A stretch of 64,000 nt of DNA from Clostridium sp. BJN0013 (GTDB lineage Bacteria; Bacillota; Clostridia; Clostridiales; Clostridiaceae): NCBI RefSeq assembly GCF_040939125.1, contig NZ_CP162495.1:3162001-3226000 (forward strand). The letters are read 5' to 3'. The notes under the pieces were generated by a model that was given only the letters and a program-made list of their open reading frames with translations, was not told the DNA's origin and made no database searches. The position numbers and the translations under genes were made by a program. This document shows positions 38,127 to 61,681 of the stretch, in pieces; positions within the stretch are counted from its first letter, which is position 1, and each line of letters begins with the position of its first letter.

Positions 38127-38338
38127 TATCAAGTGATTCTTAGGTTCAGGTGGGAGTTTGCTGTAGAGAATTGCTTATCTCCATCTGAACCTTATTAACA
38201 GTATTCTTAGTGTCTTTGGCACTTAGAATACGTTATCCTTTAGGGGAAGAACTTATCCAGGCGCGTAGCAGTGCTTATCTTCCTTTGGAGAAGATGGGAG
38301 TATTAGCAATGATAGCGTTCGAATAAATGATAGGAAGA
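38127..38338 (+). repeat. Dispersed structured element, copy A
   Basis: It starts TATCAAGTGATTCTTAGG and contains a long stem (TTAGGTTCAG ... CTGAACCTTA), the block GAACTTATCCAG then CAGTGCTTATCTTC, and the end GTATTAGCAATGATAGCG then TTCGAATAAATGA. Copies B (60,727-60,886) and C (56,425-56,550) share this order on the minus strand. Copy A also has an extra perfect 12-bp hairpin (GTATTCTTAGTG/CACTTAGAATAC, about 38200-38231). The rest of the 37,709-38,353 gap holds no gene. Confidence 0.75.
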
Positions 38339-38353
38339 TAAAAATTCCACCAC

Positions 38354-39737
38354 CTACTTTATACAATAAGCTAACCATCTAAAAAATCTTCCTACATTTT
38401 TAAAAGAAACTATATTGCATAATAATTCTGTCAGCTTTCCGAACTTCCTATAAAATAAATTAAATGCCAGAAATGGAATCCATTGCTTTTTAGATTTTGG
38501 CAGTCTTTTCATTATATTTTTAAACGTGTAAACTTCTTTGTATATCCATAGATAGCCATTATATAATTCTTCTGCTGTCATATTTTTGGGTTTATATACG
38601 ACATGTGCAGTATTGTAATTTGACAAATTAAAATCTACAATTCTATTTTCCTCCATTAATGATGAGTATAACTTTGTACCAGGATATGGTGTAAGGATAT
38701 GTGAGGTTACCGTTTCTATCTTATTTTTAACTATCCATTCTAACGTATTCTTAAATACAGATACATCATCTTCATCTAATCCGAAAACAAAACTTGCATT
38801 TATCATTATTCCCCTTTTATGAATTTCATCTGCAAGTTTCTCATATCTGTTTACACTATTTTGCACCTTATGGACACTATCTATTGACTTGCTATTTATA
38901 CTTTCAAAACCTATAAATAGACTTTGACAGCCGGCCTCCTTCATTTCATCTAAATAGACTTTGACAGCCGGCCTCCTTCATTTCATCTAATAATTCAGGC
39001 ATGTCCACTATATTAGAAGTAACCGCTGCGTTCCACTTTAGTTTAAGAGGTTTTATTTCCTCTAATAATTTTTTTGTCCATTTGGGATTTCCAATAAAAT
39101 TATCATCAATAAACATTATATGTCTTGTTTTTAGTGCATTTATATCTTTAATCACATCGTCTATTGGTCTATTAATATAAGTTTTAAGTACATTTTTACA
39201 ACTGTTATAGCAGAAATCACATTCAAAAGGGCATCCCCTGCTTGTACTAATTATATTAGTATATAAATACTTTTTACTATCAATAATGTAATAATTAGGT
39301 GACACTATTTCTTTCCCGGCAATATTTCCCATATCATAATATATCTTCTGAAGTGAATTATTTTCTTTATCCTTAAGGATTTTTGCCCAAACTCTTTCGG
39401 CCATTCCCACACATATTGCATCAAAACTATTAAGAGCACCTTCTGGATCTGCTGTAATATGTATACCCCCTGCAATTACTGTAACGTTGCGATTTTGGAA
39501 CTCCTTTGATATTTCCACTGCTCTATTCATAACATCTACAGTGACAGTTATTGCTACCAGATCTACAGATTCATCAAAATCTATCTTTTCAACATTTTCA
39601 TTCTCAATAATAACTTCATGCTCTTTCGGCGTAAGATTTGCTATTGTGAGTAATGCTAATGAAGGAGACATTCTTGTTTTTAACTTTGTATCCATAGGTC
39701 TTGACAGCATTGCAGGTTGAATTAATTTAATCTTCAT
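38354..39737 (-). pseudogene. B12-binding radical SAM protein split by a 37-bp tandem duplication
   Basis: The N-terminal frame (39737-38946) has a cobalamin-binding-like domain (LLTIANLTPKEHEVII, VTVIAGGIHITADPEGAL) and the radical SAM motif in STSRGCPFECDFCYNSCKN (CxxxCxxC). The second frame (38944-38354) continues the barrel (FIGFESINSKSIDSV, FVFGLDEDDVSVFKNTLEW) and the C-terminal domain. The residues DEMKEAGCQSLF occur at the end of the first and start of the second frame. Precise removal of one 37-bp unit restores a single frame of about 448 residues. Substrate unknown. Confidence 0.88.
38915..38988. repeat. Perfect 37-bp tandem duplication in the radical SAM gene
   Basis: The unit at 38915-38951 is repeated base for base at 38952-38988. 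As 37 is not a multiple of three, it shifts the frame. Confidence 0.95.
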
Positions 39738-39855
39738 ACATTACCTCCTCAAATAAACTTTACTCAACATTTAATTAGGGTGTGTCTGAAAACTAAATAT
39801 TGCGAAAGAACCGAGTTTTAGGTAAAATAAGATAAAAAACTTGGAGGGTGCAAAT

Positions 39856-40191
39856 ATGTCACAGAAGCGTTATGAAATATCAGATGAACAATGGGATCAA
39901 ATAAAAAACTTAATTCCAATAGCAAAAACAGGACGACCTCCAAAAGACAACCGACTTATATTTAATGCCATACTATGGATTGCAAGAAGTGGTGCAGCAT
40001 GGCGTGATTTACCAGAACGCTTCGGTTCATGGAAAACTGTATACAGTCGTTTTTGTAAGTGGCGTAACGATGGTACTTTATTAACAATTTTTAAAGAGTT
40101 AACCTCAGATGCAGATTATGAAAATTTAAGCATTGATTCAACATGTATAAAAGCCCACCAGCACAGTGCTGGTGCTAAAAAGGGGCTGTAA
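39856..40191 (+). CDS. IS5/IS427 transposase, first frame
   Basis: ATG 39856 follows GGAGGG. The 111-residue product MSQKRYEISDEQWDQIKNLI ... has the DUF4096/IS5 N-terminal domain and the first catalytic Asp in ENLSIDSTCIK. It ends at TAA after AKKGL. The run AAAAAGGGG at about 40177-40185 is the likely -1 frameshift site leading into the second frame. Confidence 0.85.
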   Translation: MSQKRYEISDEQWDQIKNLIPIAKTGRPPKDNRLIFNAILWIARSGAAWRDLPERFGSWKTVYSRFCKWRNDGTLLTIFKELTSDADYENLSIDSTCIKAHQHSAGAKKGL

Positions 40192-40625
40192 ACAGCGAAA
40201 CAAAACAGCATATTGGACTGAGTCGCGGCGGACATACAACAAAAATTCATGCAGTTGTTGATGGACTTGGCAATCCAATCTATTTTCAATTATCATCTGG
40301 CAATCTACACGACAGTACACAGGCCGTAGATGTTCTTTCCAACGTTGATATAGAAGGCAGCAATATCCTGGCAGATAAGGCATATGGCACAAATGAAATT
40401 AGAGAATATATTACTTCAAAGAAATCCTCATATACTATTCCACCAAAATCAAATGTAAGAGAACCATGGAATTGTGACTGGTGGCTGTACAAGGAACGTC
40501 ATTTAGTTGAATGTTTCTTTAACAAAATCAAACATTTTAGAAGAATTGCAACTCGTTATGACAAGCTTGCTGATTCTTTCCTTGCTTTTGTTTATATTGC
40601 TGCTATTTTTATTTTATCTAAGTAA
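40186..40625 (+). CDS. IS5/IS427 transposase, second frame (made by -1 frameshift)
   Basis: In the -1 frame, AVNSETKQHIGLSRGGHTTK follows directly on the first frame. It contains the second Asp (NILADKAYGTN) and the Glu (RHLVECFFNKIKHFRR), completing the DDE triad, and ends ATRYDKLADSFLAFVYI... at 40625. Both frames look undamaged, so the element may be active. Confidence 0.82.
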
Positions 40626-40684
40626 TTTATTGTTGCATTGTTTTCAGACACACTCTAATCTACTTACAGTATTCAACTTCCCAT

Positions 40685-40894
40685 TTATGTATCATTTCTG
40701 TATTCTAAAATATCACCTGGTTGGCATTCCAAAGCTTTGCATATTGCCTCTAAAGTTGAAAATCTAATAGCTTTTGCCTTTCCATTCTTTAGTATAGAGA
40801 TGTTTGCCATGGTTATTCCAACCTTCTCTGTAAGTTCTGTTACACTCATTTTCCTTTTAGCCAGCATCACATCAATATTGATTATAATTGCCAT
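40685..40894 (-). CDS. Small Cro/XRE-type HTH regulator (YozG-like)
   Basis: The 69-residue protein, MAIIINIDVMLAKRKMSVTE, is a single HTH (LTEKVGITMANISILKNGKA then FSTLEAICKALECQPGDIL). ATG 40894 is behind GAGGTG at 6 bp. YozG-like regulators are nearly always paired with a DUF2975 membrane protein, as here, 10 bp upstream. Confidence 0.85.
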   Translation of the reverse strand: MAIIINIDVMLAKRKMSVTELTEKVGITMANISILKNGKAKAIRFSTLEAICKALECQPGDILEYRNDT

Positions 40895-40904
40895 GTTATT
40901 CACC

Positions 40905-41357
40905 TCATATCGTTAAATCATTTTCTGATTTTATATCAATAGCATCTTGTAAAAGCCTTTGAAGAACAGCAGCAAAGACTCCAACCACAATTGAGGCAAA
41001 AATAAAAATAACTGGGAATCCCATGAAGCCTGGAGCGTCGTCTGCATCCGCTATAGGAACTACGAATGGTATGAGTACTGCATATATAATACTGATTGTG
41101 ATTGCACAGTATTTTATATTCTTTAAAGCCTTTATAGATAATTCCGAGAAAGCTTTGTTCTTGTCAATATAGCTTAAAAGCTTTAAAGCCTGATATAGAG
41201 CAAAGAAAAATGTTATTGCCGATGCATACACACCTATTAAAATGGGATAGTGCAAATAATCTGCAACTAAAGGCAACCAAAATATACACAAAGCAAGAAC
41301 CGGAATTCCAATAAGAAAAACAGCTATCCTTAAGAAAATTGTTGAACATCGTTTCAT
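40905..41357 (-). CDS. DUF2975 membrane protein
   Basis: The 150-residue protein has four hydrophobic helices (AVFLIGIPVLALCIFWL, IGVYASAITFFFALYQAL, ITISIIYAVLIPFVV, VIFIFASIVVGVFAAVL). ATG 41357 follows GAGGTG at 6 bp. Together with the small HTH gene it forms the widespread YoaS/YozG-type pair; function unknown, possibly membrane-linked control of the regulator. Confidence 0.82.
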   Translation of the reverse strand: MKRCSTIFLRIAVFLIGIPVLALCIFWLPLVADYLHYPILIGVYASAITFFFALYQALKLLSYIDKNKAFSELSIKALKNIKYCAITISIIYAVLIPFVVPIADADDAPGFMGFPVIFIFASIVVGVFAAVLQRLLQDAIDIKSENDLTI

Positions 41358-41537
41358 AAAAAGCACCTCACTTTTAATTTATGTATAGGATAACATATTT
41401 TTTACTGTTTATCAATAAATATTTATTGATTTTTATATAGAGTTAAAGGGTTGCAATCCGATTTACAATTGAGCTTCAAGAAAAAAACAGTCAGGTTCCA
41501 TCTTAATGTACTCAAAACACTAATTTATATATAAAAA

Positions 41538-41579
41538 GATATTACATTTAAAATTAATAATAATTTTAAATGTAATATC
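41538..41579 (-). terminator. ppdK terminator, 19-bp perfect stem
   Basis: GATATTACATTTAAAATTA (41538-41556) pairs perfectly with 41561-41579 around a 4-nt loop, followed on the minus strand by TTTTTATATAT. The related hairpin at 35328-35370 belongs to the relic copy. The rest of 41,367-41,658 holds no gene. Confidence 0.8.
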
Positions 41580-41658
41580 TTATACTTTTTGTGGTTTCAA
41601 TAGCCTCAAATACCCTTGTATAATCTTTTTTAAGCTATGATTATATTATCTTGTTTTA

Positions 41659-44298
41659 TTATTTACTTGGTCTTGGATGTTTTACCTGAGCCTGAGCTGC
41701 CGCTAATCTTGCTACCGGAACTCTAAAAGGAGAACAAGATACATAATCAAGCCCTACATTGTGGAAAAATTCTACTGAAGAAGGATCTCCGCCATGTTCT
41801 CCACATATTCCAAGATGTATATCTGGCCTTGTTTTTTTACCTAACTGTACAGACATTTCAACCAGCTTTCCTACTCCAACCTGATCTAATTTTTCAAATG
41901 GATCAAATTCATACACTTTTTTTTCATAATAATCATTTAGGAATTTACCTGCATCATCTCTTGAGAATCCAAAAGTCATTTGAGTTAAGTCATTAGTACC
42001 AAAGGAAAAAAATTCTGCTTCTTTGGCTATTTCATCTGCTGTAATGGCAGCCCTTGGAATTTCTATCATAGTTCCAATTTTATACTTTAAATCTACTTTT
42101 TCTTTTTGTATTATTTCATCTGCTATTTTTACAACTATATCCTTAACATATTTTAACTCTTTTATTTCTCCTACAAGAGGTATCATTATCTCAGGCACTA
42201 TATTATACCCTTTTCTTTTCTTAACATCTATAGCCGCTTCAATAATAGCCCTAGTCTGCATCTCTGCTATTTCAGGATATGAAACAGTCAATCTACAGCC
42301 TCTATGTCCCATCATAGGATTAAATTCATGCAGTGATTCTATAGTATCCTTTAATTCCTGAAAACTTATATCCATATCCTCAGCTAAATTTTTTATATCC
42401 TCAGTTTCACTTGGAAGAAACTCATGTAACGGCGGATCTAAAAATCTAATTGTCACAGGTTTATCTTCCATGGCTTCATATATCCCAATAAAGTCTCCCT
42501 TCTGTCTTGGAAGCAATTTATTTAACGCTTTTCTTCTTTGTTCTTCCGTTTTTGACACTATCATTTCTCTTACTTCCGATATTCTGTCTTCATCAAAAAA
42601 CATATGCTCTGTCCTACAAAGCCCTATTCCCTGCGCTCCAAATTCAATAGCCTGCTTAGCATCTTTTGGTGTATCCGCATTTGTCCTAACCTTTAAATAT
42701 CTTATATTATCTGCCCAATCCATAAAAATTTCAAAATATCCCGATATCTCAGGTGACACTGTTTTTATAGCTTCTCCATATACATTGCCGGTACTTCCGT
42801 CTAATGATATGTAGTCTCCCTCTTTATAAGTTTTATTTAAACTGCGGAGACTTTTGGTACTTTCATCTATGATTAAGCCACCACATCCAGCTACACAACA
42901 AGTTCCCATACCTCTAGCTACAACAGCAGCATGGGATGTCATTCCTCCTCTAATAGTAAGTATTCCTTCTGAAGCTGCCATTCCTTCAATATCCTCTGGA
43001 GATGTCTCAAGTCTTACAAGTATTACTTTTTCACCTTCATCATGGTGTCTTTTAGCATCTTCCGCTGTAAAATATATTTTACCACAAGCAGCTCCTGGAG
43101 ATGCTGGAAGCCCTTTAGCTATTACAGTTGCTTTTTTTAATTCCTCACTATGAAAATTAGGATGAAGCAAGGTATCTAATTGTTTAGGCTCTACTTTAAG
43201 TATAGCTTCCTTTTTAGTAATAAGCCCTTCTTCCACCATATCCACTGCTATTTTAAGAGCAGCTTGAGCTGTTCTTTTCCCATTTCTAGTCTGAAGAAAA
43301 TACAAAGTACCCTGCTCTATAGTAAACTCCATATCTTGCATATCCTTATAGTGACTCTCTAATTTTTGAGCTATATCCATAAATTCAGAGTAACACTCTG
43401 GAAGATCCTCTTTTAACTTAGTTATAGGTTCCGGTGTTCTTATACCTGCAACTACATCTTCTCCTTGTGCATTTATAAGATACTCGCCAAATATAGATTT
43501 TTCTCCTGTAGCAGGATTCCTGGTAAAAGCAACTCCTGTACCTGAAGTTTCTCCCATATTTCCAAATACCATAGATTGAACATTTACTGCAGTTCCCCAT
43601 TTACCTGAAATATCATTAAGTCTTCTATAAACTACAGCCCTTGGATTTTCCCAAGAGTTAAAGACAGCTGTAACAGATTGAATCAGTTGTTCCTGTGGTT
43701 CTTGTGGAAAATCTTTTCCTATTTCATTTTTATAAAGATCTTTAAACTTTTTAATTATATTAATTAAATCAGATGAATCTAAATCCTTATCAAATTCAAC
43801 ACCTTTTGCATCCTTGGTACTTTCTAGTATATCTTCAAATTTCCTCTTTTCAATGCCCTTAACTACATCGGAAAACATCTGAATAAATCTTCTATAGGAA
43901 TCATAAGCGAATCTTTCATTACCTGTTAATTTAGCCAGTCCTTTTACAGTATCATCATTCAGTCCTAAATTCAATATAGTATCCATCATTCCAGGCATAG
44001 AAACTCTGGCCCCTGATCTTACTGAAACTAAAAGCGGATTTTCTATACTTCCAAATTTTTTACCTGTAGTCTCCTCTATACCTTTTAATGAAGCATAAAT
44101 TTGATCTATAATATATGATGATATTACTTTTCCATCTTCATAGTATTTAATACATGCTTCTGTAGATATAGTAAATCCAGCTGGAACAGGTATTCCCAAA
44201 TTTGTCATTTCAGCTAAATTAGCCCCTTTGCCCCCTAACAAATTTTTCATGCTAGCATTTCCTTCATTAAAGAGATACACATACTTTTTATTTTCCAT
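41659..44298 (-). CDS. ppdK: Pyruvate, phosphate dikinase
   Basis: PPDK interconverts pyruvate + ATP + Pi with PEP + AMP + PPi, feeding gluconeogenesis or PPi-linked glycolysis in clostridia. The 879-residue protein has the nucleotide-binding N-terminal domain (LLGGKGANLAEMTNLG), the phospho-histidine domain (GGMTSHAAVVARGMG) and the PEP-binding barrel (GICGEHGGDPSSVEFF then SCSPFRVPVARLAAAQA). It is full length. A CBS-domain regulator lies 79 bp upstream, the common control pair. Confidence 0.96.
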   Translation of the reverse strand: MENKKYVYLFNEGNASMKNLLGGKGANLAEMTNLGIPVPAGFTISTEACIKYYEDGKVISSYIIDQIYASLKGIEETTGKKFGSIENPLLVSVRSGARVSMPGMMDTILNLGLNDDTVKGLAKLTGNERFAYDSYRRFIQMFSDVVKGIEKRKFEDILESTKDAKGVEFDKDLDSSDLINIIKKFKDLYKNEIGKDFPQEPQEQLIQSVTAVFNSWENPRAVVYRRLNDISGKWGTAVNVQSMVFGNMGETSGTGVAFTRNPATGEKSIFGEYLINAQGEDVVAGIRTPEPITKLKEDLPECYSEFMDIAQKLESHYKDMQDMEFTIEQGTLYFLQTRNGKRTAQAALKIAVDMVEEGLITKKEAILKVEPKQLDTLLHPNFHSEELKKATVIAKGLPASPGAACGKIYFTAEDAKRHHDEGEKVILVRLETSPEDIEGMAASEGILTIRGGMTSHAAVVARGMGTCCVAGCGGLIIDESTKSLRSLNKTYKEGDYISLDGSTGNVYGEAIKTVSPEISGYFEIFMDWADNIRYLKVRTNADTPKDAKQAIEFGAQGIGLCRTEHMFFDEDRISEVREMIVSKTEEQRRKALNKLLPRQKGDFIGIYEAMEDKPVTIRFLDPPLHEFLPSETEDIKNLAEDMDISFQELKDTIESLHEFNPMMGHRGCRLTVSYPEIAEMQTRAIIEAAIDVKKRKGYNIVPEIMIPLVGEIKELKYVKDIVVKIADEIIQKEKVDLKYKIGTMIEIPRAAITADEIAKEAEFFSFGTNDLTQMTFGFSRDDAGKFLNDYYEKKVYEFDPFEKLDQVGVGKLVEMSVQLGKKTRPDIHLGICGEHGGDPSSVEFFHNVGLDYVSCSPFRVPVARLAAAQAQVKHPRPSK

Positions 44299-44377
44299 AG
44301 GACATATTCTCCTTTATTTACAATATTTTACATATAATTTTATACATATGAGCAGATAATTAAACTGCTCACTGGCT

Positions 44378-45022
44378 CTATTTATTTTCCCCTATTTTTA
44401 CAAAAAGTCTTGTTATATTTGTCTTTGAAACTTTTCCTATAATTTTAAGAATTTCATTATTTGATTCGTCATAAGATCTTTCTACCACGGGAAGACTATC
44501 TACCTCATGTTCCATTATCTTCTGAGCTGCCAAATATGCAGCATCTTCTTTTTCTACAAACACTATGTTGGGCATTCTAGTCATTATTATACCCACTGGT
44601 ATTTTATGCATATCACTACTTCCTATAGCTATCTTTAAGAAATCCTTTCTTGAAACAGCTCCTGTAAGAATCCCTTTATTCTCTATAAACAAAGTTCCTA
44701 CATCATTTAAAAACAAATATACTATGGCATCATACACTGTAGTATTCTCATCCAACATTACAGGTTTTGACATTATATCCTTTACTTTTATATTCATAAT
44801 ATAATCATATACTAAACTGTATGAAGGTTTTTTAGAATATATATATCCTACCTTAGGTTTTGCCTCTAATATACCTGTCATAGTAAGTATAGCTAAATCC
44901 GGTCTGAGTGCCGCCCTTGTAACATTTAATTTATTTGCAAGCTGTTCACTAGTTATAGGCGCATGTTCCTTTACCAATTCTATTATTTTCTCTTGCCTTG
45001 ATGATAGTTTAATGATGTCCAC
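44378..45022 (-). CDS. CcpN-like regulator: HTH plus two CBS domains
   Basis: The 214-residue protein begins with a winged HTH (SRQEKIIELVKEHAPITSEQ, LANKLNVTRAALRPDLAIL) followed by paired CBS domains (VKDIMSKPVMLDENTTVYDA and IMTRMPNIVFVEKEDAAYLA). CcpN in Bacillus represses gluconeogenic genes and senses adenine nucleotides through the CBS pair. Its place before ppdK suggests control of that gene. GTG 45022 is the start, behind GAGAGAGG. Confidence 0.83.
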   Translation of the reverse strand: MDIIKLSSRQEKIIELVKEHAPITSEQLANKLNVTRAALRPDLAILTMTGILEAKPKVGYIYSKKPSYSLVYDYIMNIKVKDIMSKPVMLDENTTVYDAIVYLFLNDVGTLFIENKGILTGAVSRKDFLKIAIGSSDMHKIPVGIIMTRMPNIVFVEKEDAAYLAAQKIMEHEVDSLPVVERSYDESNNEILKIIGKVSKTNITRLFVKIGENK

Positions 45023-45258
45023 CCTCTCTCTCTATAGTAAATTAAATAATTGTGCAAGCATTTACTAAGAGGAATTTAGTATAAGTTTCCAAAGTTATAT
45101 TCCCTATAAGTTATTATACCATATATATGTGGGTGAATAGTATATGATTTCATTCTTTACTGAAAATTGTCATTATAATTAAAACTATTACTATCCATAT
45201 TTACACAAACAATAGTCTTTAATACAGCTGTCTTTGATATATATTATAAATATAATAT

Positions 45259-45858
45259 TTACTCTTTGTGTTCCTTATTATCCCTGCCATACTCTTTTTC
45301 TTCCTCATCTATATCATCAAACTTTACAGTATATTTATATGTGTTCTTATCCTCTTCTTTTTCTTTATTGGAGAATTTATCCTTAACTGAAGAGGCTGCA
45401 TCATATACCTTATCTTTCATGTCATTTACTGTATTTCTAACCCCATTTTTTATTATCTTATTCACTACTTCTACTGTCCCATCATCTTTCGTTATTTCTA
45501 TAGTTACTTTAGTAATTACAGCGGTCAATATACCTATAGCTATCAGTGGTGGCCATATGAGAGCTGTTAAAGTTGCTGCAATGCCTGCATTTACAGGAAT
45601 ATCTACTACTACTCTGTCATCTTTTTTTATTTTTATCCTATTTACATTTCCCTTATTCACTAAATCTTTTAGCCATTGTAGAAATTCATCCTTTGTTGTA
45701 TACAAATTATCTTTATAAGATTTTTTATTCTGTTCTATATATATAAGTGCATCAACTACATTGGCATCACAAAATTCCAATGCCTCTTTTGCCTCGGAAT
45801 AGGTTACTCCAGTTCTTTCTCTTATAATATCAATTTTTTCTAATGTTACTTCACTCAT
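45259..45858 (-). CDS. UBA-like/DUF4342 protein
   Basis: The 199-residue protein has an N-terminal UBA-like helical part (KIDIIRERTGVTYSEAKEAL, EFCDANVVDALIYIEQ), a DUF4342 middle with a glycine/alanine hydrophobic stretch (IAATLTALIWPPLIAIGI) and a charged tail. ATG 45858 is chosen since AAAGGAGAG lies upstream; the longer frame runs into recO. The role is unknown. The 236 bp before ppdK's regulator contain no gene. Confidence 0.75.
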   Translation of the reverse strand: MSEVTLEKIDIIRERTGVTYSEAKEALEFCDANVVDALIYIEQNKKSYKDNLYTTKDEFLQWLKDLVNKGNVNRIKIKKDDRVVVDIPVNAGIAATLTALIWPPLIAIGILTAVITKVTIEITKDDGTVEVVNKIIKNGVRNTVNDMKDKVYDAASSVKDKFSNKEKEEDKNTYKYTVKFDDIDEEEKEYGRDNKEHKE

Positions 45859-45874
45859 ATTTTTCTCTCCTTTT

Positions 45875-46648
45875 TTAGACTTTATTCTTTTCAAAACTTA
45901 TAAGATTCCTTAAAATATTTAAACTTTTAGGTTTCCTAAAATAATTTTGAGAAATAATAAGTGTCAAAACTTTATATAATTCTTCTTTCACTTCTTTAGT
46001 TAAAACAACCCTATACACATTTTCCATAGAAATATTAGACAGGTACTTTAATGCACTACAGGTAGGATAACTTATATGCATGCTGTTTTTTTTATCACAT
46101 TCCCTACAAATCCCTCCTAAATACTGAAGATGTAGATATTCAAAAGATGTAATTTTTTTTCTGCATAAAGCACAATAATCAAAATTAAGTCCATATCCTG
46201 TAGTTTTTAAAATTTTCAACTCAAAAGTTCTTGCTAAAGTTTCAATATCTACTGCGTGACTCCTTATAAGATAAAAAGAAGTAGCTAAATACCTAAAAAG
46301 TTCCCTGCTACTCTCCCCATCATCCATTGCTATATCTGTAAGTTCACAAAAATAAGAAGCATAAGTTAAGTCAGTTAAATCATTCAATAAATCTTGAAAT
46401 GAATCTATTAAACTGCTCTCATTTATCACATACAAACTTTTTCCTTTATAAACCACATAATCTCCATAACAAAATTGAAGAGTAGTAGAAAATAGCGGAC
46501 TTCTGGTCTTTTTAGAACCTTTAGCTATAGTAGATATTTTACCAAGTTTTTCAGTAAAAAGCCATACTAACTTATCTGATTCTTTTATATCCTGTGTCTT
46601 TATAATTATAGCTCTAGTTTTAAATATAGCCAGAAAATCATCCCCCAT
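45875..46648 (-). CDS. recO: DNA repair protein RecO
   Basis: RecO helps load RecA at gaps together with RecR. The 257-residue protein has the OB-fold start ([20 protein letters not shown]) and a C4-type zinc finger (CALCRKKI and CRECDKKN). It follows era by 46 bp in the conserved era-recO order. No clear ribosome-binding site precedes ATG 46648, so the start is less certain. Confidence 0.93.
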
Positions 46649-46694
46649 TTTAATTTAGTATATCCTTTATTTAAAAATAAATTTCTATATTAAC

Positions 46695-47985: not shown

Positions 47986-48031
47986 ATTATTCCTCCCTGA
48001 AAATATAGACTTTACACTTAAATAAACCTTC

Positions 48032-48730: not shown

Positions 48731-48777
48731 GACTACTCCTCATTTTATCAAATTAAAATTTACATAGTGCTACATAA

Positions 48778-51395: not shown

Positions 51396-51441
51396 TGAAA
51401 ATCACCCTTTGTTTTCTATATTTATCTTCTAAATGTTAGTT

Positions 51442-52608: not shown

Positions 52609-52876
52609 AAACTATAGAATTAAACCTCCCTCCTATGGTTATAGTACTTCCCCCCATAAAAAGTACTTCAAATCTACTACCATATATAGATATTAAACCT
52701 ACACCTGAATTAATTTTTATTTGATTTTCATCGAATAATATAATGCCTCTATGATTTTCTATTATTATTTCACTATTTCCCGTAACTTTAATTTGAGGCA
52801 TATTTAAAATTATATCCCTTGGCAAATCTAACTTATCTGCAATATTCCGCTTTGTATTGTACATTTTGTCTCCCAT
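52595..52876 (-). CDS. yqfC: Sporulation protein YqfC
   Basis: The 93-residue YabP/YqfC-family protein has the characteristic RNIADKLDLPRDIILNMPQI and GNSEIIIENHRGIILFDENQ segments. It forms a conserved pair with yqfD. The upstream 150 bp should hold a mother-cell promoter; I did not identify one with confidence. Confidence 0.93.
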   Translation of the reverse strand: MGDKMYNTKRNIADKLDLPRDIILNMPQIKVTGNSEIIIENHRGIILFDENQIKINSGVGLISIYGSRFEVLFMGGSTITIGGRFNSIVYEGN

Positions 52877-53029
52877 AGTATCACCTCTAAAAATTTATCT
52901 ATATTAAATACATAGTCTCTACTAATTTATGAAATATATATATAATAAATTCCTTAAAGGTTAAACTACATTTAAGAAGTACACTGATTTATTTTCTCTT
53001 TAATCATGTAAATTTCAGATAAATAAAAA

Positions 53030-53053
53030 AAGCTGAGAATAAACTCCCAGCTT
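53030..53053 (-). terminator. Terminator after the YqeY-like gene
   Basis: AAGCTG/CAGCTT stem with partly paired interior, followed by TTTTTTTATT on the minus strand. It ends the rpsU-yqeY transcript before yqfC. Confidence 0.7.
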
Positions 53054-53118
53054 CTTATATTTATTTAAATATTTTTTACTATTTGACTCACAAGCCTACC
53101 ATCTCATAGCTTTAGTTC

Positions 53119-53490
53119 TTAAGTACAACAATTGCCATAATATTTTTCACTTTTTATGCTTTCTGCACCCACTTTGTCAACTGCTTTCCTAAAAATTTCG
53201 GAAAGTTTTTTCTCACTTAACTGCTGAGGAAGGTAATTCAACAAAATCCCTATTTCAGATCTCATCTTACGAATCAAATCCCATTTTTCGCCTTTTTTAA
53301 ATTTAAGCATACATTTGCATCTTTCCTTAACTTGTCTTAATAACACATCTGCAACTTTTTTATCATCAAGTTTTCTTCCATTAGCTTTTTCCACTAATAA
53401 AATAATCAATTTAGCCATACTCATAATATCTAATTTAAGCTTATCTATCAATTTAAAATCATATTTCTGGCATTTTTGTTTAAGGGACAT
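53119..53490 (-). CDS. Divergent, shortened YqeY/GatB-YqeY-domain protein
   Basis: It sits directly after rpsU, the normal place for yqeY. The middle matches the family (LDDKKVADVLLRQVKERCKC and ILLNYLPQQLSEKKLSEIFR, VGAESIKSEK). It is about 25 residues short: the MGKVM...KGRADGK end is missing and replaced by YYGNCCT. The first part is also unusual. It may be a decaying or specialised paralogue. YqeY's general function is itself uncertain, linked to tRNA amidotransferase-like domains. Confidence 0.7.
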   Translation of the reverse strand: MSLKQKCQKYDFKLIDKLKLDIMSMAKLIILLVEKANGRKLDDKKVADVLLRQVKERCKCMLKFKKGEKWDLIRKMRSEIGILLNYLPQQLSEKKLSEIFRKAVDKVGAESIKSEKYYGNCCT

Positions 53491-53518
53491 ATTGTTTAAT
53501 ACCCTCTTTCAAAAAATT

Positions 53519-53695
53519 CTACTTAAACTTTCTCTTTCTTGCAGCTTCTGATTTTTTCTTTCTTTTTACACTTGGTTTTTCATAATGTTCTCTTTTTCTG
53601 ACTTCTGAAAGAACACCAGCTCTTGCACATTTTCTTTTAAATCTTCTCAATGCACTCTCTATAGTTTCATTTTCTCCAACTTTTATTTCTGACAT
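53519..53695 (-). CDS. rpsU: Ribosomal protein S21
   Basis: The 58-residue small-subunit protein, [20 protein letters not shown], continues [20 protein letters not shown] and ends with a basic tail. ATG 53695 lies behind GGAGGGAGGGATATAAT. Confidence 0.96.
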
Positions 53696-53861
53696 ATTAT
53701 ATCCCTCCCTCCGCTAGCTCAATTTAATTTAAAAAATTAAATACAGTTAACATGGGTCAAATAGCACATAGCCATTATACAATAAATCTTTAGACACTGT
53801 CAACAATTTCATAGTGGTTATATTAAACATAATTGTACTCTCAACTTTTTTATAATGAATA

Positions 53862-54206
53862 TTAACCTGGAGGCCATTTCAAAGTTCTTCCTCCCAGCAT
53901 ATGGAAATGAACATGTGATACTGTCTGTCCCCCTTCTTTTCCACAGTTAGTTACAATTCTATATCCTTTATTTGATATACCCAATTTAACTGCAATTTGT
54001 TTTGCAATTAAATATATATAAGCAATGAGTTTAGCATCCTCTTCAGTAATGTCATTTATACTATCTATATGCTTTTTAGGTATCATAAGTACATGTACTG
54101 GTGCACCTGGCTCTATATCCTTAAAACATAATACCTTGTCATCTTCATATACTTTTTCAGAAGGTATGTCACCCTTTATTATCTTACAAAAAATACAATC
54201 TTCCAT
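53862..54206 (-). CDS. HIT-family nucleotide hydrolase (HinT-like)
   Basis: It hydrolyses adenosine phosphoramidates. It has CIFCKIIKGDIPSEKVYEDD at the N-terminus and the triad HVHFHMLGGR at the end. ATG 54206 is behind AAAGGAGGTG. About 114 residues, normal length. Confidence 0.94.
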   Translation of the reverse strand: MEDCIFCKIIKGDIPSEKVYEDDKVLCFKDIEPGAPVHVLMIPKKHIDSINDITEEDAKLIAYIYLIAKQIAVKLGISNKGYRIVTNCGKEGGQTVSHVHFHMLGGRTLKWPPG

Positions 54207-54266
54207 AAATTTCACCTCCTTTAACTGTATAATATTCAATAGTTTATAATCAATATCCTTCTAAAA

Positions 54267-55658
54267 TCACATAAAACTTTTGATCTTCCCCGAAATATAT
54301 CCCTCTTTTAAACTTTCAAGTTTTGTACTTAAAATTTTTCCCTCCAAATTTTCGCCCTTTACAGTTTCTGCAATTATCTTTATATAATTGGGTGTATACC
54401 CTTCATAGCATATCTTTTCCCCTGGAACTTTCTGTTCATACAATACATTCATATTATTGCCTAAAAATCTATTCATAAATTTATTTTCCAGTTTTTCATT
54501 TAACTTTATAATCCTAATGCTTCTTTCATCTTTTATCTTGCCATCTATTTGATCTTCCATATTTGCAGCTTTGGTACCTTCTCTTCTGCTATATTTAAAC
54601 ACGTGAATTTTTGAAAGTGCTATCTTATTTAAAAAATTATAAGTTTCACAAAATTCTTCCTCTGTTTCACCAGGAAAACCAACTATAATATCAGTGGTTA
54701 TAGATACATTTTTTATACTCTCTCGAAGTTTATATACTATTTCTTCATATTCTGAAGTAGTATACTTTCTATTCATTCTTTTTAAAGTAGAGTTACATCC
54801 ACTTTGAAGTGAAAGATGAAAATGAGGACATAATTTTGTTAAATTTGCCATCCTATTTATAATATCTTCTGTAAAAAACTTAGGATCTATAGAACCTATT
54901 CTAACTCTATCAATACCTTTTATTTTATCTATCTCTTCCAATATTCTAATCAAGTTCCAATTTTCATTAATATCTAAACCATAGGAGGCAATATGTATGC
55001 CTGAAAGTACTATTTCTTTAAAATTATTAATTTCAAGTTTTTTAACTTCTTCTATAATTTTATCAGGTTCTTTACTGCATACAGGTCCTCTAGCAAAGGG
55101 TATCAAACAATAAGAGCAGAATCTATTGCATCCATCTTGAATTTTTAAAAAGGCTCTTGTTCTATTTTGATATTCACTTATATTTAAATCTTCAAATGTT
55201 CTATTTTTTAAGATATCATTGACTTCTACTATTTTTTCTTCATCTCTAAAGGCTCTATTCACCCAGTGCAATATATCACCCTTATTTTTAGTTCCTAGAA
55301 CCACATCTACTCCTTCTATTTTAGATACTTCATCTGGAGCAATTTGAGAATAACATCCTACTACAGCAATTATGGCGCTGGAATTTCTTCTTTTAGCACG
55401 ATGTATCATCTGTCTAGACTTTTTATCCCCCATATTTGTTACCGTACAAGTATTTATTACATACACATCCGCATATTGTCTAAAATTCACAAGTTCATAC
55501 TCTTCCCCAATAAATTTTTCAGCCATAGCTTCAGTTTCATATTGATTTACTCTACATCCAAGAGTAGCTATAGCCACTTTTTTCTTCCTACCATATAAAT
55601 GAAAAAATTCCTCACCTGAAAGTGTTAAATCCACTTTATTTGCATTAACTGGTTCCAC
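54267..55658 (-). CDS. mtaB: tRNA t6A37 methylthiotransferase MtaB
   Basis: MtaB converts t6A to ms2t6A at position 37 using two [4Fe-4S] clusters. The N-terminal MTTase domain has TLGCRVNQYE, NTCTVTNMGD and VVGCYSQI; the radical SAM cluster is QDGCNRFCSYCLIPFARG; a TRAM domain closes the protein. 463 residues, slightly long at the N-terminus (about 28 residues before the core). GTG 55658 directly follows the rsmE stop; a GTG at about residue 29 is an alternative start. Equivalent to B. subtilis YqeV. Confidence 0.95.
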   Translation of the reverse strand: MEPVNANKVDLTLSGEEFFHLYGRKKKVAIATLGCRVNQYETEAMAEKFIGEEYELVNFRQYADVYVINTCTVTNMGDKKSRQMIHRAKRRNSSAIIAVVGCYSQIAPDEVSKIEGVDVVLGTKNKGDILHWVNRAFRDEEKIVEVNDILKNRTFEDLNISEYQNRTRAFLKIQDGCNRFCSYCLIPFARGPVCSKEPDKIIEEVKKLEINNFKEIVLSGIHIASYGLDINENWNLIRILEEIDKIKGIDRVRIGSIDPKFFTEDIINRMANLTKLCPHFHLSLQSGCNSTLKRMNRKYTTSEYEEIVYKLRESIKNVSITTDIIVGFPGETEEEFCETYNFLNKIALSKIHVFKYSRREGTKAANMEDQIDGKIKDERSIRIIKLNEKLENKFMNRFLGNNMNVLYEQKVPGEKICYEGYTPNYIKIIAETVKGENLEGKILSTKLESLKEGYISGKIKSFM

Positions 55659-56414
55659 CTAACAAAAACCTCCTAAATCTCCTAATTCATACATAAGAAG
55701 TGCTACACAGACAAATCCCGCCGTTTCCGTTCTAAATATTCTAGGGCCAAGAGTTACTATTTTGGAATTAATATCCTTAAGTTTTTCTATTTCCTCTTTT
55801 TCAAATCCTCCCTCTGGACCAATTACAATGGCTACTTTATTTATAGCCTCTCTACATTCTATAGAATTTATTACTTTCTTTATTCCAATAGATTTTTCCA
55901 TTTCATAAGGAACTACAATTAAGTCCACATTAGATAAACATTTTAAAAGTTCTTCAAAGTAAATAGGAGTATTCACAGGAGGTATTATACTTCTTTTACA
56001 CTGTTTACAGGCTTCCAATGCAATTTTATTCCATCTATCCACTCTCTTGAGTTCTTTAAAATCACCTTTTATTACCACTCTATTAGTAATTATAGGGGTT
56101 ATCTCCGAAACTCCAAGTTCAGTAGCCTTTTGTACAATTAAATCCATTTTACTGGATTTAGGCAATCCTTGGAATAAATATAATTTAAGGGTACTTTCAT
56201 TATATACTTTAAGTTCTTCTACAATATTTATTGTAACTTTTTCCCTGTCTATATTGTCTATTAATCCTAAAAATTCTTTTCCATGGCAGTTGTTTACATT
56301 TACTTTGTCTCCTATCTTTAACCTAAGCACTTTATTTATGTGTTTTAAGTCATCCCCTGTAATATACACTGTATTAAAATTTATATCCGCCTGGGGTACA
56401 AAAAATTTATTCAT
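55659..56414 (-). CDS. rsmE: 16S rRNA m3U1498 methyltransferase RsmE
   Basis: The SPOUT-fold enzyme has a PUA-like N-terminus (GDDLKHINKVLRLKIGDKV) and the knotted SAM site VAIVIGPEGGFEKEE followed by LGPRIFRTETAG. 251 residues, full length. It directly follows prmA, with structured element copy C between them. Confidence 0.95.
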   Translation of the reverse strand: MNKFFVPQADINFNTVYITGDDLKHINKVLRLKIGDKVNVNNCHGKEFLGLIDNIDREKVTINIVEELKVYNESTLKLYLFQGLPKSSKMDLIVQKATELGVSEITPIITNRVVIKGDFKELKRVDRWNKIALEACKQCKRSIIPPVNTPIYFEELLKCLSNVDLIVVPYEMEKSIGIKKVINSIECREAINKVAIVIGPEGGFEKEEIEKLKDINSKIVTLGPRIFRTETAGFVCVALLMYELGDLGGFC

Positions 56415-56424
56415 ATTAAATCAC

Positions 56425-56550
56425 CTTTTTTATCCAAAGGCGGCAATTAGTTAATGCCCCCAGTTTTTTTAAATGAGTTCTTCTAAGATTAAGATGGAGA
56501 AAAGCACTCCTTATGAGAAAGCTCCATCCAAAGCTAAAAGTTACTTGATA
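56425..56550 (-). repeat. Dispersed structured element, copy C, overlapping the prmA stop
   Basis: Minus strand, same order as copies A and B but shorter: TATCAAGTAACTTTTAG, a stem (GATGGAGCTTT ... CTCCATC), AAGAACTCAT, then GCATTAACTAATTGCCGCC and TTTGGATAAA. Its first bases supply the last two codons and the TAA of prmA (ATC AAG TAA). It fills the prmA-rsmE gap on the transcribed strand. Confidence 0.7.
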
Positions 56551-57479
56551 GTTGATACTATACATACCCATTCTCCATCTTCATTTATTTCTTTTATTTT
56601 GAATCCGTTATTTTCCAAATTTTCAACCACTTCCTCTTTTCTATCTATTATTATACCCGAAGATATAAAAACTCCTTCTGGAACTAAAAATTCTTTAACT
56701 TCTTCTGTTAAAGACATTATCACATCTGCAATTATATTTATAACCAAAATATCTGCCTTTCCATGAATTTCTTCCATAAGATTTCCATGAACTACCTTTA
56801 TATTTTTTATGTTATTATATCCTATATTTTTCAAAGCGGATTCTATAGCTACAGGATCTAAATCCACCGCAGTAACTTTTTTTGCTCCAAGCTTTGAGGA
56901 AGTTATAGCTAGTATTCCTGAACCTGTACCTATATCAAATACATTTGATTCGGGCTTAACATATTTCTCCAGTGCCTTTATACACATTTTTGTAGTTTCA
57001 TGAGTGCCAGTACCAAAGGCCATACCTGGATCAATTTCTACTACTATATCATGTTTTTTATTTTCATACTTTTCCCAAAGTGGCTTTATTACTATTTTCT
57101 CTCCAGCCCTATAGGGCTTATAGTACTTTTTCCAATCATTCTCCCAATCCTGTTCATTTACTTTATTTACTACAACCAAACCTTTTCCTTTATCTATACC
57201 GAAATTTTCTAAATTATTTATATTATGTTTTATGTATTCTAGATAACTGTCAAAGTTTTCATTTTCTCTATAGTATGCTTTAATTACTGCTCCCTCTTTC
57301 ACTTTCAATAGACTTTCATCAAAATAATCCCAGTCTCCAGAATGTTTTTTCTTGAATTCTATATCCTTTGTATCTTCTATGGATATACCTTCAACTTCCG
57401 TATTATATAATATTCCTGAAACAGCTTCTACCGCTTCACTACTTACAATTATGGAGACCTCTATCCATTCTTTACTCAT
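56541..57479 (-). CDS. prmA: Ribosomal protein L11 methyltransferase PrmA
   Basis: PrmA trimethylates L11. The 312-residue protein has the N-terminal substrate-binding domain and the SAM site [19 protein letters not shown], preceded by [14 protein letters not shown] and followed by NIIADVI (NPPY-like motif). Its stop codon lies in structured element C. Confidence 0.95.
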
Positions 57480-57494
57480 ATGCTTCCTCCTATA

Positions 57495-57546
57495 TAAGTA
57501 AATATACTGACAGCTATAATATGAAAACTGTCAGTATATTTACTTA
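57495..57546 (-). terminator. 19-bp perfect hairpin between prmA and dnaJ
   Basis: TAAGTAAATATACTGACAG (57495-57513) pairs perfectly with 57528-57546 around a 14-nt loop. It follows the dnaJ stop and comes just before the prmA ribosome-binding site, so it could be a terminator or a processing/attenuation site. Confidence 0.7.
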
Positions 57547-57563
57547 TTATAATTTTGAAGATT

Positions 57564-58703
57564 CTATTTGGAATCATTTTTAAAAATTTTATCGATAAAT
57601 GATTTTTTTTCTACATCTCTTGGTTGAATTTCTCCACTAGCTTCCATGAACATTATAACAGCTTCTTTTTGTTTTTCATTTAAACTTTTAGGTATATCTA
57701 CAATTATATTCACGTATTGATCTCCTCTACCTCTTCCATCAACTTTAGGAACACCTTTTCCTTTTAATCTAAATACAGTTCCCGGCTGAGTTCCAGGTGG
57801 AATATCATATTTAACATCTCCATCTATAGATGGAACTTTTAAACTAGTTCCAAGTGCTGCTTTTCCAAAACTAATATGAGCATCTAGATAAATGTCAAAT
57901 CCCTTCCTTTTAAATTTACTATGAGGAGAAACCCTCAAATTTACATAAAGATCTCCTGGAGGTCCTCCATTTTTACCATGTTCTCCTTGTCCTTTTATAG
58001 GTATTATATTGCCATTATCCACTCCCATAGGAATTTTCACTTTTATTTTTCTATGCTTCCTTACTGTACCCTTACCTCTACATTCTTCACATTGATTTCT
58101 TATTATAGTACCTTTACCGCCACATTTATCACAGGTAGTCATGGTAACGAAATTTCCAAGTGGAGTACTTCTCTGATGTCTAACCTGACCTGTACCACCG
58201 CATTTATCACAGGTGTGAGGATGACTTCCTTTTTTTGCACCTGTCCCATTACAAACTTCACATCTTTCATCTCTAGTTACAGGTATTTCCTTTTCCACAC
58301 CAAAAACTGCTTCTTCAAAGGTCAAACTCAATGTATATTCAAGATCAGAACCTCTTTCTGGTCCATTTTTTCTTTTTCCAGAAGAAAATCCACCTCCAAA
58401 GAAAGAGTCAAATATATCTCCAAACCCCCCCAGATCCGAAAAATCAAATCCTCCAAAACCACCTTGAAATCCTCCACCATTAAAATCAGTGGTACCAAAC
58501 TGATCATACTGGGTTTTTTTCTGAGGATCTGTAAGTACTTGATATGCTTCATTTATCTCCTTAAATTTCTCTTCTGCTTTCTTATCATTTGGATTTCTAT
58601 CTGGGTGGTATTTTAATGCTAATTTTCTAAAAGCCTTTTTTATATCCTGATCACTGGCTCCTTTCTCCAGTCCCAAGATTTCATAATAATCTTTTTTTGC
58701 CAT
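57564..58703 (-). CDS. dnaJ: Chaperone DnaJ
   Basis: DnaJ is the Hsp40 partner of DnaK. The J domain ([16 protein letters not shown]), Gly/Phe-rich region (about 75-120), four CxxCxGxG zinc repeats ([32 protein letters not shown]) and C-terminal substrate domain are all present in about 379 residues. ATG 58703 matches the usual MAKKDYYE start, although a GTG 18 bp upstream is closer to AGGTGG. Confidence 0.97.
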
Positions 58704-58757
58704 TTTTATGTTTTTCACCACCTAAAACAAAAGTATAAATTACAATTTCTACTTAAA

Positions 58758-58788
58758 TTAAGGGAAGAGCCAGAAACTCATCCCTTAA
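58758..58788 (-). terminator. Hairpin between dnaK and dnaJ
   Basis: TTAAGGGA-GAG (58758 on) pairs with CTC-TCCCTTAA (to 58788). There is no long U tract, so it may be a stabilising or processing hairpin rather than a full terminator. Confidence 0.55.
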
Positions 58789-58834
58789 CTATTATTATTA
58801 TACACATTTATTATATAATCGTGAAGAGAAAATA

Positions 58835-60679
58835 TTATTTATCATCATCTACTTTATAATCTGCATCAACTACATTGTCATCTTTAGAATCTGTATTTCC
58901 TGTTGTTCCCCCTGGGTTTGCTCCTGCATCCGGTCCAGGCTGGGCATTTTGACTATATATTTTTGATGTAATTCCATAGAAAGTCTGTGTTAAATCTTCT
59001 GTAGCCTTCTTAATTGCTTCAAGATCATCTCCATCTTTCACTTTCTTAACAGCTTCAACTTTTTCTTCTATAGCTTTTTTATCTTCACTTGAAACCTTAT
59101 CTCCTAAATCTTTCAAAGTCTTCTCTGTCTGATATACCACCTGATCTGCATTATTCTTTATCTCTATGGATTCTTTTCTCTTCTTGTCTTGCTCTTCAAA
59201 CTTTTCAGCTTCCTTTACAGCCTTATCTATTTCATCATTACTTAAATTAGTAGAAGCTGTAATTGTAATATTAGCTTCCTTGCCAGTTCCCTTATCCTTG
59301 GCAGATACATTTACTATGCCATTTGCATCTATATCAAAAGTAACTTCAATTTGCGGCACTCCTCTTGGAGCTGGAGCTATACCTGACAGAGTAAATCTTC
59401 CAAGGGTCTTATTATCTGCAGCCATTTGTCTTTCTCCTTGAACTACATGGATTTCCACAGAAGTCTGACCATCTGCTGCAGTTGAAAATACTTGACTCTT
59501 CTTAGTAGGTATTGTAGTATTTCTCTCAATTAAAGGAGTAGCAACTCCTCCTAAAGTTTCAATTCCAAGAGTAAGCGGAGTTACATCAAGAAGCAATACA
59601 TCTTTTACATCCCCAGTTAAAACTCCTGCCTGGATAGCTGCACCCATAGCCACACATTCATCAGGGTTAACCCCTTTAGATGGTTCTTTACCTGTAAAAC
59701 TTTTTACTGCTTCTTGAACAGCAGGTATTCTTGTAGATCCACCTACCAATATAACTTTATTTATATCATTTATTGTAAGCCCTGCATCATTTAATGCTTT
59801 TCTCATAGGTTCTATTGTTCTGTCAACCAAGTCCTGTGTAAGTTCATTAAATTTTGCTCTTGTTAAACTCATATCTATATGTTTTGGTCCTGTAGCATCT
59901 GCTGTAATAAACGGTAAGTTTATATTGGTTTGAGTTGAAGATGATAACTCAATTTTAGCTTTTTCGGCACCTTCCTTTAATCTTTGAAGTGCCATTTTAT
60001 CATTTTTTAAATCTATGCCATTATCAGCTTTAAAAGTATCTGCTATATAATCTATTATTTTTTTATCGAAATCATCTCCGCCTAAATGGGTATCTCCATT
60101 TGTAGCCTTAACTTCAAATACGCCATCTCCAAGTTCCAATATGGATACATCAAAGGTACCTCCCCCTAAGTCATATACAAATATTCTCTGATTTGTATCC
60201 ATTTTATCCATTCCATAGGCAAGAGCTGCAGCCGTAGGTTCATTTATTATCCTAAGCACTTCAAGTCCTGCAATTTTTCCTGCATCTTTAGTTGCCTGTC
60301 TCTGACTATCATTAAAATATGCAGGTACTGTTATAACTGCCTGTGTAACAGTTTCTCCTAAATAAGCCTCTGCATCTGCTTTTATTTTCTGAAGCACCAT
60401 TGCAGATATCTCCTGTGGTGTGTATTGTTTTCCATCTATATTAACTTTATGATTTGTTCCCATTTCCCTCTTTATTGAAATTATTGTTTTATCAGGATTT
60501 GTTATTGACTGTCTTTTAGCAACCTGACCTACCAATCTCTCTCCGTTTGCCTGAAAAGATACTACAGAGGGAGTTGTTCTTGCACCTTCTGAGTTTGCTA
60601 TTACTACCGGGTCTCCACCTTCCATAACTGCAACACAGGAATTTGTTGTTCCTAAATCAATACCTATTACTTTTGACAT
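58835..60679 (-). CDS. dnaK: Chaperone DnaK (Hsp70)
   Basis: The 614-residue protein has [47 protein letters not shown] and a substrate-binding domain with [14 protein letters not shown]. The Gram-positive deletion in the nucleotide-binding quadrant is present. It ends with an acidic tail ([16 protein letters not shown]). Structured element copy B lies in the leader between grpE and dnaK. Confidence 0.98.
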
Positions 60680-60726
60680 GTTAATTTACCTCCTAAATTT
60701 AACTCAGTTGAGATTTATCTTGTATA

Positions 60727-60886
60727 CCTCTTATTTATTCGAAGACGGCAATTGGCTAATGACCCAGCCTTTTCAAAGTGAGAAATTAAGCACTGTTGCG
60801 CCCTCTGGATAAGTTCTCCTAAGGTTCAGATGGCGAAAAGTATTATTTATTAACAAACTTCATTTGAACCTAAGAGTCACTTGATA
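60727..60886 (-). repeat. Dispersed structured element, copy B, in the grpE-dnaK gap
   Basis: Minus strand: TATCAAGTGACTCTTAGG, stem (TTAGGTTCAAATG ... CATCTGAACCTTAG), GAACTTATCCAGAGGGCGC, CAGTGCTTAATTTC, then GTCATTAGCCAATTGCCG and CTTCGAATAAATAA. It closely follows copy A. It is on the transcribed strand of the heat-shock operon, 26 nt after the grpE stop, and fills most of the 232-bp gap. Confidence 0.75.
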
Positions 60887-61571: not shown

Positions 61572-61681
61572 TTTAGAAATTTCCTCCAATCTAATATTTT
61601 ATCACCACTTACACAACTAGTTTATACTACTATGCTAGGCAGTTTAAAACCCTATTAGAAATCAAAAGGTTAATCACTTTT

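Follow-up and report, generated by a model that had tools for sequence, protein, structure and literature searches.

Analysis of a 64,000-nt stretch of the genome of Clostridium sp. BJN0013 (contig NZ_CP162495.1, positions 3,162,001 to 3,226,000 of the forward strand; here called the window) revealed three copies, A, B and C, of a non-coding mobile element. The element is approximately 151 nt long, or approximately 202 nt when it carries an additional hairpin named P2, and it inserts precisely beside the pentanucleotide ATAAA. A preceding sequence-only reading of the window had described a dispersed repeat whose three copies share an ordered set of sequence blocks. The copies are real and lie close to where that reading had placed them, and the blocks are ordered as described. 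A covariance model (R1), built from 44 copies of the own genome with copy C of the window among them, scored 146 bits for copy A, 95 bits for copy B and 140 bits for copy C; with the filters off, the next-best position of the window reached 20.5 bits. Three second-order Markov controls (464 kb) gave a maximum of 9.5 bits with the hidden Markov model (HMM) version of the profile, for which 35 bits served as the working threshold.

Insertion sites, recent movement and spread

Alignment of the copies revealed sharp ends surrounded by unrelated flanks. Over 20 positions upstream of the element, no position exceeded 0.21 bit, which corresponds to no conservation, and of 81 copies, 72 had ATAAA as their 3' end; target conservation is confined to one side. 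No terminal inverted repeats were seen by eye. Empty and filled sites were read directly in syntenic stretches of the own genome (G000) and of its two nearest relatives (G011 and G004). The empty site has the form N|ATAAA and the filled site N|ATCAAGTGATTC...TTCGG|ATAAA. The target was not duplicated at these comparisons, and a single ATAAA was left at the clean empty sites. The dinucleotide AT adjoins both junctions, so that the exact cut is ambiguous by two bases.

Elements with at least 35 bits (68 in all) were compared with two other genomes each. The 136 comparisons gave 53 empty, 40 present, 16 partial and 27 not comparable sites, the empty and present calls depending on gap length. The residual gap of the empty sites was exactly 5 nt in 22 comparisons and 4 to 6 nt in 31, which derive from 21 distinct elements; the remaining 22 of the 53 had other gaps, from -50 to 19 nt. 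On reading, at least two of the 40 present calls (G004 841052 and 880589 versus G000) proved to be unrelated sequence, and the G011 counterpart of G004 1072315 was rejected as a clean empty site, TTCGGATAAA being kept there. None of the 68 copies, with orthologues counted per genome, lies inside an open reading frame (ORF) of at least 90 amino acids in a mechanical, unannotated ORF set, whereas 71 to 76% of the sampled ATAAA sites do. The empty sites, the covariation described below and the absence of copies from ORFs strongly support the proposal of the sequence-only reading that the repeat is mobile, structured and intergenic.

Comparison of the corresponding gene gaps in related genomes, a check which that reading had suggested, revealed a clean empty site for copy C in both G011 and G004. 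At the dnaK locus, where copy C lies, no element copy was found in any of the 29 other genomes scanned. At the place of copy B, a 22-nt remnant is present in both G011 and G004; copy B is older than the insertion of copy C. The rsmE region of G005 and G006 carries a partial copy approximately 1 kb upstream, at a different place from copy B. For copy A, no orthologous site was found within the compared stretches of the relatives.

The sister genomes G004 and G011 demonstrate recent activity of the element. Of 25 copies in G004, 11 were called empty in G011 (8 with a gap of 4 to 6 nt), nine were called present and five were not comparable. The 11 copies empty in G011 scored 133 bits on average versus 92 bits for the nine present. 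Two of the G004 copies, at 874397 and 1064820, are also cleanly empty in G000, so that a gain in G004 is the simpler reading for them; the other copies empty in G011 may represent gains in G004 or losses in G011. In G048 and G025, head-to-tail tandems were found in which the terminal 3' ATAAA had been reused as a target. One further site (G000 3540634, G004 794014, G011 586178) is filled in G000 and G004 and empty in G011; the two filled sites differ in class, one species having a long copy and the other a short one. Either the element was excised precisely, or the same ATAAA received an insertion twice. Between positions 760001 and 1160000 of G004 (400 kb), the minus strand carries 22 of the 25 copies that scored 35 bits or more. 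No such skew was seen among the other G004 copies of the same chromosome half, for which 9 plus-strand and 6 minus-strand copies were counted by eye among the matches listed.

A genome-wide count had also been suggested, and it revealed many further copies. In the own genome (one contig, 4.10 Mb), at least 150 matches were found, which scored 98 to 186 bits and spanned 120 to 206 nt; the model was aligned end to end, so that its span of 1-151 is uninformative about the completeness of a copy. In 464 kb (the window plus 400 kb), 30 copies with at least 35 bits were found, which extrapolates to approximately 265 per genome. The element is present in 23 of the 59 genomes searched, the own genome included. 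Ten other genomes have at least 46 matches each among the best 52 candidates scored per genome, and divergent subfamilies have 56 matches in G034, 38 in G025 and 65 in G048 with up to 150 candidates scored. An exact pattern with 23 fixed bases matched 109 stretches across named genomes. The sources among the 80 of these that were listed include C. carboxidivorans, C. ljungdahlii, C. ragsdalei, C. drakei, C. muellerianum, C. algidicarnis, C. uliginosum, the strains OS1-26 and BL-3 and two metagenome bins. The same pattern gave no match in IMG/VR. Neither blastn against a phage collection nor blastn against a plasmid collection, the latter with E values up to 10, returned an element match.

The copies in the window, their junctions and their surroundings are as follows.

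38128-38327, plus strand: copy A, 200 nt, long class with P2 (146 bits with model R1), between an ORF at 36578-37708 (plus strand) and an ORF at 38354-38944 (minus strand)
38195-38245, plus strand: P2 module of copy A, an extra 51-nt hairpin that is near identical across the 200-nt class and absent from the 151-nt class
38323-38327, plus strand: ATAAA at the 3' junction of copy A, the target pentanucleotide, which reads TTTAT on the other strand
56429-56549, minus strand: copy B, 121 nt, shortened and decayed
56429-56433, minus strand: ATAAA target at the 3' junction of copy B
60734-60885, minus strand: copy C, 152 nt, short class, in the grpE-dnaK gap
60734-60738, minus strand: ATAAA target at the 3' junction of copy C
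60912-61589, minus strand: grpE (NCBIfam)
58835-60679, minus strand: dnaK (NCBIfam)
57564-58721, minus strand: dnaJ (NCBIfam)
56541-57479, minus strand: prmA (NCBIfam)
55659-56414, minus strand: rsmE (NCBIfam)
23298-23654, minus strand: RNase P RNA (RF00010, 319 bits)
20506-21777, minus strand: IS110-family transposase gene (NCBIfam NF033542)

The NCBIfam assignments uphold the gene context that had been given for copies B (prmA-rsmE) and C (grpE-dnaK), both of which lie in sense orientation within operons. The final two codons and the stop of prmA (ATC AAG TAA, 56541-56549, minus strand) are the first nine bases of copy B; in G011 and G004, the same prmA end reads ATC AAG TGA.

Conserved fold and the nested P2 hairpin

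On the strand used by the sequence-only reading, the consensus revealed two adjacent domains. TTCT:AGAA and AGT:ACT close the left domain, a long hairpin. The right domain, with TATCC:GGATA as its closing helix, contains an inner hairpin and an internal loop, GTAGCA/TGGTA, which is conserved across several subfamilies. The central strand ACTTATCC has two pairing partners: the left end (AAGT) for its first half, and the right end plus the target (GGATAA) for its second half.

Covariation was counted in 41 sequences from four genera (alignment A2: 16 copies of the own genome, 8 of 10 from G034, 9 of 10 from G048 and 8 of 10 from G025). With a structure derived from sequences of the same family that the count uses, 139 cells were changed on both sides, versus 57 ± 9 in shuffled alignments and at most 35 when the partner was slid. 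In four sequences from G048, the left closing helix AGT:ACT is replaced by GGT:GCC, an exchange of A-U for G-C. A rearranged left end precludes this comparison for G025. Alignment of the G025 left domain and of the inner helices on the right is imperfect, and some pairs consequently have low counts, for example, columns 103/133 (1 of 41). An AAC:GTT pairing considered for the G025 left end was not given by RNAalifold. RNAalifold analysis of a MAFFT alignment of the 44 own-genome copies (alignment A1: 39 of 40 short-class and 5 of 40 long-class copies) returned merely 8 pairs with covariation nearly nil. Because inserted copies drift, the structure is hidden within the own-genome copies and becomes visible between subfamilies. 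The compensatory changes on which the sequence-only reading had staked the reality of the repeat are thus present across four genera.

The difference between the long and the short class is the 51-nt hairpin P2. That length changes by gain or loss of a whole hairpin, as had been suggested, is borne out, orthologous sites included: P2 is present in one species and absent in the other at three sites compared between G000 and G011/G004 (3245643, 3451772 and 3540634), the last of which may reflect two separate insertions. Between G011 and G004, the P2 state agrees in nine of nine pairs. Divergence from the consensus was determined in a sample of 147 elements, which comprised 51 long and 73 short entries and 23 entries excluded for length or undecided class, some of them with a truncated P2. 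The 51 long-class entries represent 50 copies, since two overlapping versions of window copy A are included. Their median divergence was 2% for P2 versus 10% for the rest of the element; most P2 copies had been picked by similarity to a long-class query, which favours intact P2. The two values do not correlate (rho -0.19, p = 0.18). Mean P2 divergence was 1.1% in the most decayed half and 1.7% in the other half, with single copies up to 8%. In ten copies taken from continuous stretches with an HMM without P2, divergence was 0 to 8% for P2 versus 7 to 18% for the host element. P2 is approximately 1 to 2% diverged regardless of the decay of its host, which indicates that it spread later. In G025 (L288 to L291), P2 stands at the same internal place with different, mutually compensated stem letters, as judged by eye. 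It appears that elements which were already dispersed acquired P2 secondarily, through its insertion or through conversion from one copy to another. It looks like a second mobile module that is younger than its host elements and occurs in another genus too.

Candidate movers and related repeats

To our knowledge, IS200/IS605 elements insert without target duplication. The element described here inserts 3' of a fixed pentanucleotide without target duplication and has subterminal hairpins at both ends. The IS200/IS605 scheme comprises a one-sided short target, subterminal hairpins and guides that pair with the cut sites (PMC6006769; here and below, published systems are given as described in the passages cited). 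At the right end, an AAGT guide was read that pairs with ACTTGAT, which fits this arrangement. We put the probability of movement in trans, through a single-strand mechanism like that of IS200/IS605, at about even. The relevant strand would read TTTAT|CCGAA...CACTTGAT|. An enzyme would recognise the folded ends and cut after TTTAT at the left and after TTGAT at the right, the internal guide (GGATAAGT on the TTTAT strand) would select the cut sites by base pairing, and the excised piece would insert 3' of another TTTAT. The mover would now be absent from several element-rich genomes, or the enzyme would be of another kind.

Several observations weigh against such a mechanism. The left guide, GGATAA, pairs with TTTATCC but sits 3' of the left hairpin, whereas each IS200/IS605 guide lies directly 5' of its hairpin (PMC6006769). 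A search for Y1 transposases (PF01797, E up to 0.001) found none in G003, G004, G015 and G025, which carry at least 51, 52, 46 and 37 element matches, respectively, and the recently active G004 is among these genomes. In a sample of 43 Y1/TnpB loci, none had the element ends as its own ends; the lone full copy, in locus L095, lies outside the part shared with locus L096. A bias toward the lagging strand was weak (88 of 150 copies, p = 0.04; 25, 33 and 30 of 50 in the best, middle and lowest score thirds), with the terminus set at 2.05 Mb and the origin near position 1 inferred from the GC skew of the loci. The loci L095 and L096 (G000 530795-533995 and 1091619-1094819) are two nearly identical TnpB-bearing elements; an element copy lies approximately 130 nt past the shared end of one of them, and none lies beside the other. 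The IS200 and TnpB elements of the own genome were considered as partners and rejected, as their ends differ.

TnpB (PF07282) is absent from the element-carrying genomes G007, G031 and G048, and 20 further TnpB loci gave a single weak partial match of 21.5 bits. Among the only families profiled, Y1, IS110 (PF01548) and TnpB, none tracks the element, and the mover was not found. In 228 sampled loci (2.23 Mb), no convincing split version of the element with an ORF between its halves was found. Three candidates for such a version were rejected: two were pairs merely 70 and 110 nt apart, and one consisted of weak pieces 2.5 kb apart. It is on account of the missing Y1, IS110 and TnpB matches, the lack of an insertion sequence with these ends, the misplaced left guide and the weak strand bias that the single-strand mechanism is held at approximately half.

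Two other kinds of enzyme are serious rivals. An undescribed or host-encoded enzyme may move the element, as may hold for orphan repeats like bcr1. None of the three profiled families occurs in every element-rich genome, which is consistent with such an enzyme; however, three families were profiled in one genome per species, and a plasmid-borne or recently lost transposase would look alike. We consider this explanation somewhat unlikely. A recombinase with an AT dinucleotide core, either a serine recombinase or an RNA-guided IS110 enzyme with the element as its guide RNA, would act on a circle junction GG-AT-CAAGT and a target N-AT-AAA. The AT at both junctions fits a 2-nt core, the central ACTTATCC nearly complements the joined ends GGAT-C-AAGT by eye, and IS110 is abundant in G000 (34 matches) and G004 (22 matches). 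However, PF01548 is absent from the element-carrying genomes G005, G007, G009, G025, G031, G034 and G048, 30 IS110 loci yielded one weak partial match of 16 bits and four below 7 bits, and the target is conserved on one side only. An AT-core recombinase is accordingly judged rather improbable. The RNA-like two-domain fold with its conserved internal loop and the unduplicated target would also suit a folded RNA that is reverse transcribed or reverse spliced and then integrated. Such a route is very unlikely, as no Rfam intron or ribozyme family was matched and a sense-strand insertion bias is absent. The Rfam 15 scan of the whole window at gathering thresholds returned RNase P RNA alone and nothing for the element, and a scan of copy A with E values up to 10 gave one chance match (E 1.9).

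The closest known kinds of repeat are bcr1, of the group A repeats bcr1 to bcr3, and the palindrome-associated transposable elements (PATEs). bcr1 is a double hairpin of approximately 155 bp, and we know of no transposase of its own. Its length is given as 147 to 167 nt (PMC2267715), and 11 to 130 copies per genome (39 on average) are reported for this repeat, which resembles a miniature inverted-repeat transposable element and whose mobility is linked to a TTTAT motif (PMC6542083, PMC3446304). In two strains, 84 of 165 and 62 of 155 bcr copies lay within mRNAs, with a correlation with decay rate reported for bcr3 only (PMC3446304). bcr1 and the clostridial element, compared by description only, are both intergenic, occur in tens of copies per genome and have TTTAT at the junction. 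However, bcr1 is described as confined to the Bacillus cereus group (PMC6542083), whereas the element described here is clostridial, and the description of P2 and of the shared guide strand derives solely from clostridial copies. PATEs, the IS605-related repeats of Haloquadratum, are described as transposase-free and without terminal inverted repeats, with hairpins near their termini and a short oligonucleotide target; they show strain-specific insertions although the IS200-type transposases of one strain are all pseudogenes, and the small mobile repeats SMR-A insert into their palindromes (PMC3119063). The clostridial element shares the first four of these features, and the invasion of PATEs by SMR-A parallels P2, which may do likewise. 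However, PATEs are archaeal and their palindromes resemble IS605-type ones, whereas no insertion sequence with matching ends was found for the element of Clostridia.

REP sequences are 21 to 65 nt long (PMC6006769) and carry a GT[AG]G tetranucleotide at the hairpin foot (PMC6006769, PMC3733652). The clostridial element resembles REP and REPIN sequences in its many intergenic structured copies and in a GTAGC beside the inner helix of the right domain. Unlike REP/REPIN systems with RAYT, it is 151 to 202 nt long with two domains, precise ends and a fixed pentanucleotide target, and several element-rich clostridial genomes are without any Y1 match. The BOX elements of Streptococcus pneumoniae are modular and intergenic with an optional internal hairpin unit. 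Compared by description, the optional hairpin is the likeness, whereas the ends, the target and the fold of the second domain are the clostridial element's own. In literature searches of open-licence papers, no account of such a repeat in Clostridium was found. The element forms a clostridial family for which no description was found; its kind is known but little understood, and a mobile module is nested within it.

A bolder reading, which we regard as doubtful, would take the element as self-splinting clostridial mobile DNA with no known dedicated transposase. Both ends and the ATAAA target would be splinted by the central guide strand, and the strand set free would anneal to existing copies and rewrite them. 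If true, this would account for the transfer of P2 between copies at a single fixed place, and it would join these elements with the bcr1-type TTTAT repeats of Bacillus under one mobility enzyme.

Fate of inserted copies and significance

The sequence-only reading had suggested that each copy is a transcribed structured RNA that tunes the stability or expression of its mRNA. Copies B and C in sense orientation within operons, the covariation across genera and the stable RNA folds of copies C (z-score, -2.4) and A (-3.5) agree with this idea. However, the other strand of copy A folded as DNA gave a z-score of -3.6, so that stability cannot tell RNA from DNA, and for copy B (-1.2) 20 of 200 shuffles folded equally well or better. 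Between co-directional genes, 14 copies are sense and 25 antisense, whereas intergenic ATAAA sites lean slightly the opposite way (0.32 to 0.35 sense versus 0.28 to 0.29 antisense). Changed stem pairs comprised 74 G-U and 83 A-C in the 44 own-genome copies and 62 G-U and 55 A-C in the 41-sequence set; these counts give no sign of a preference for the supposed RNA strand. The element was conserved less than both 80-nt flanks in 13 of 19 orthologous pairs. In the nine G011-G004 pairs, conservation was 0.86 to 0.96 for the element versus 0.95 to 1.00 for the flanks; the copy at G000 3552506 (0.97) is a counter-example. The divergence of the element corresponds to the expectation for unconstrained DNA, and constrained flanks could contribute to the difference. 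Both operon sites in the window are empty or deleted in the nearest relatives. Tuning of mRNAs is therefore unsupported as a general role, although single copies may act on the mRNA that carries them, and we regard it as highly improbable that each copy is a functional RNA element. In these respects, the copies resemble neutral mobile DNA and not regulators that are maintained.

C. ljungdahlii, C. ragsdalei, C. carboxidivorans and C. drakei are gas-fermenting species that are used industrially. The findings place a mobile element of high copy number in gas-fermenting clostridia; its empty sites are clean, its fold covaries, and it was active recently. The question of what moves transposase-free TTTAT repeats such as bcr1 thereby becomes testable in tractable hosts, and the nested P2 poses a second puzzle, that of a hairpin spreading among the copies of another repeat. 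The results also advise caution, as good folding and location in an operon alone do not make intergenic structures regulatory RNAs. Overall, the element gives the impression of a genomic parasite, not of a switch that regulates genes.

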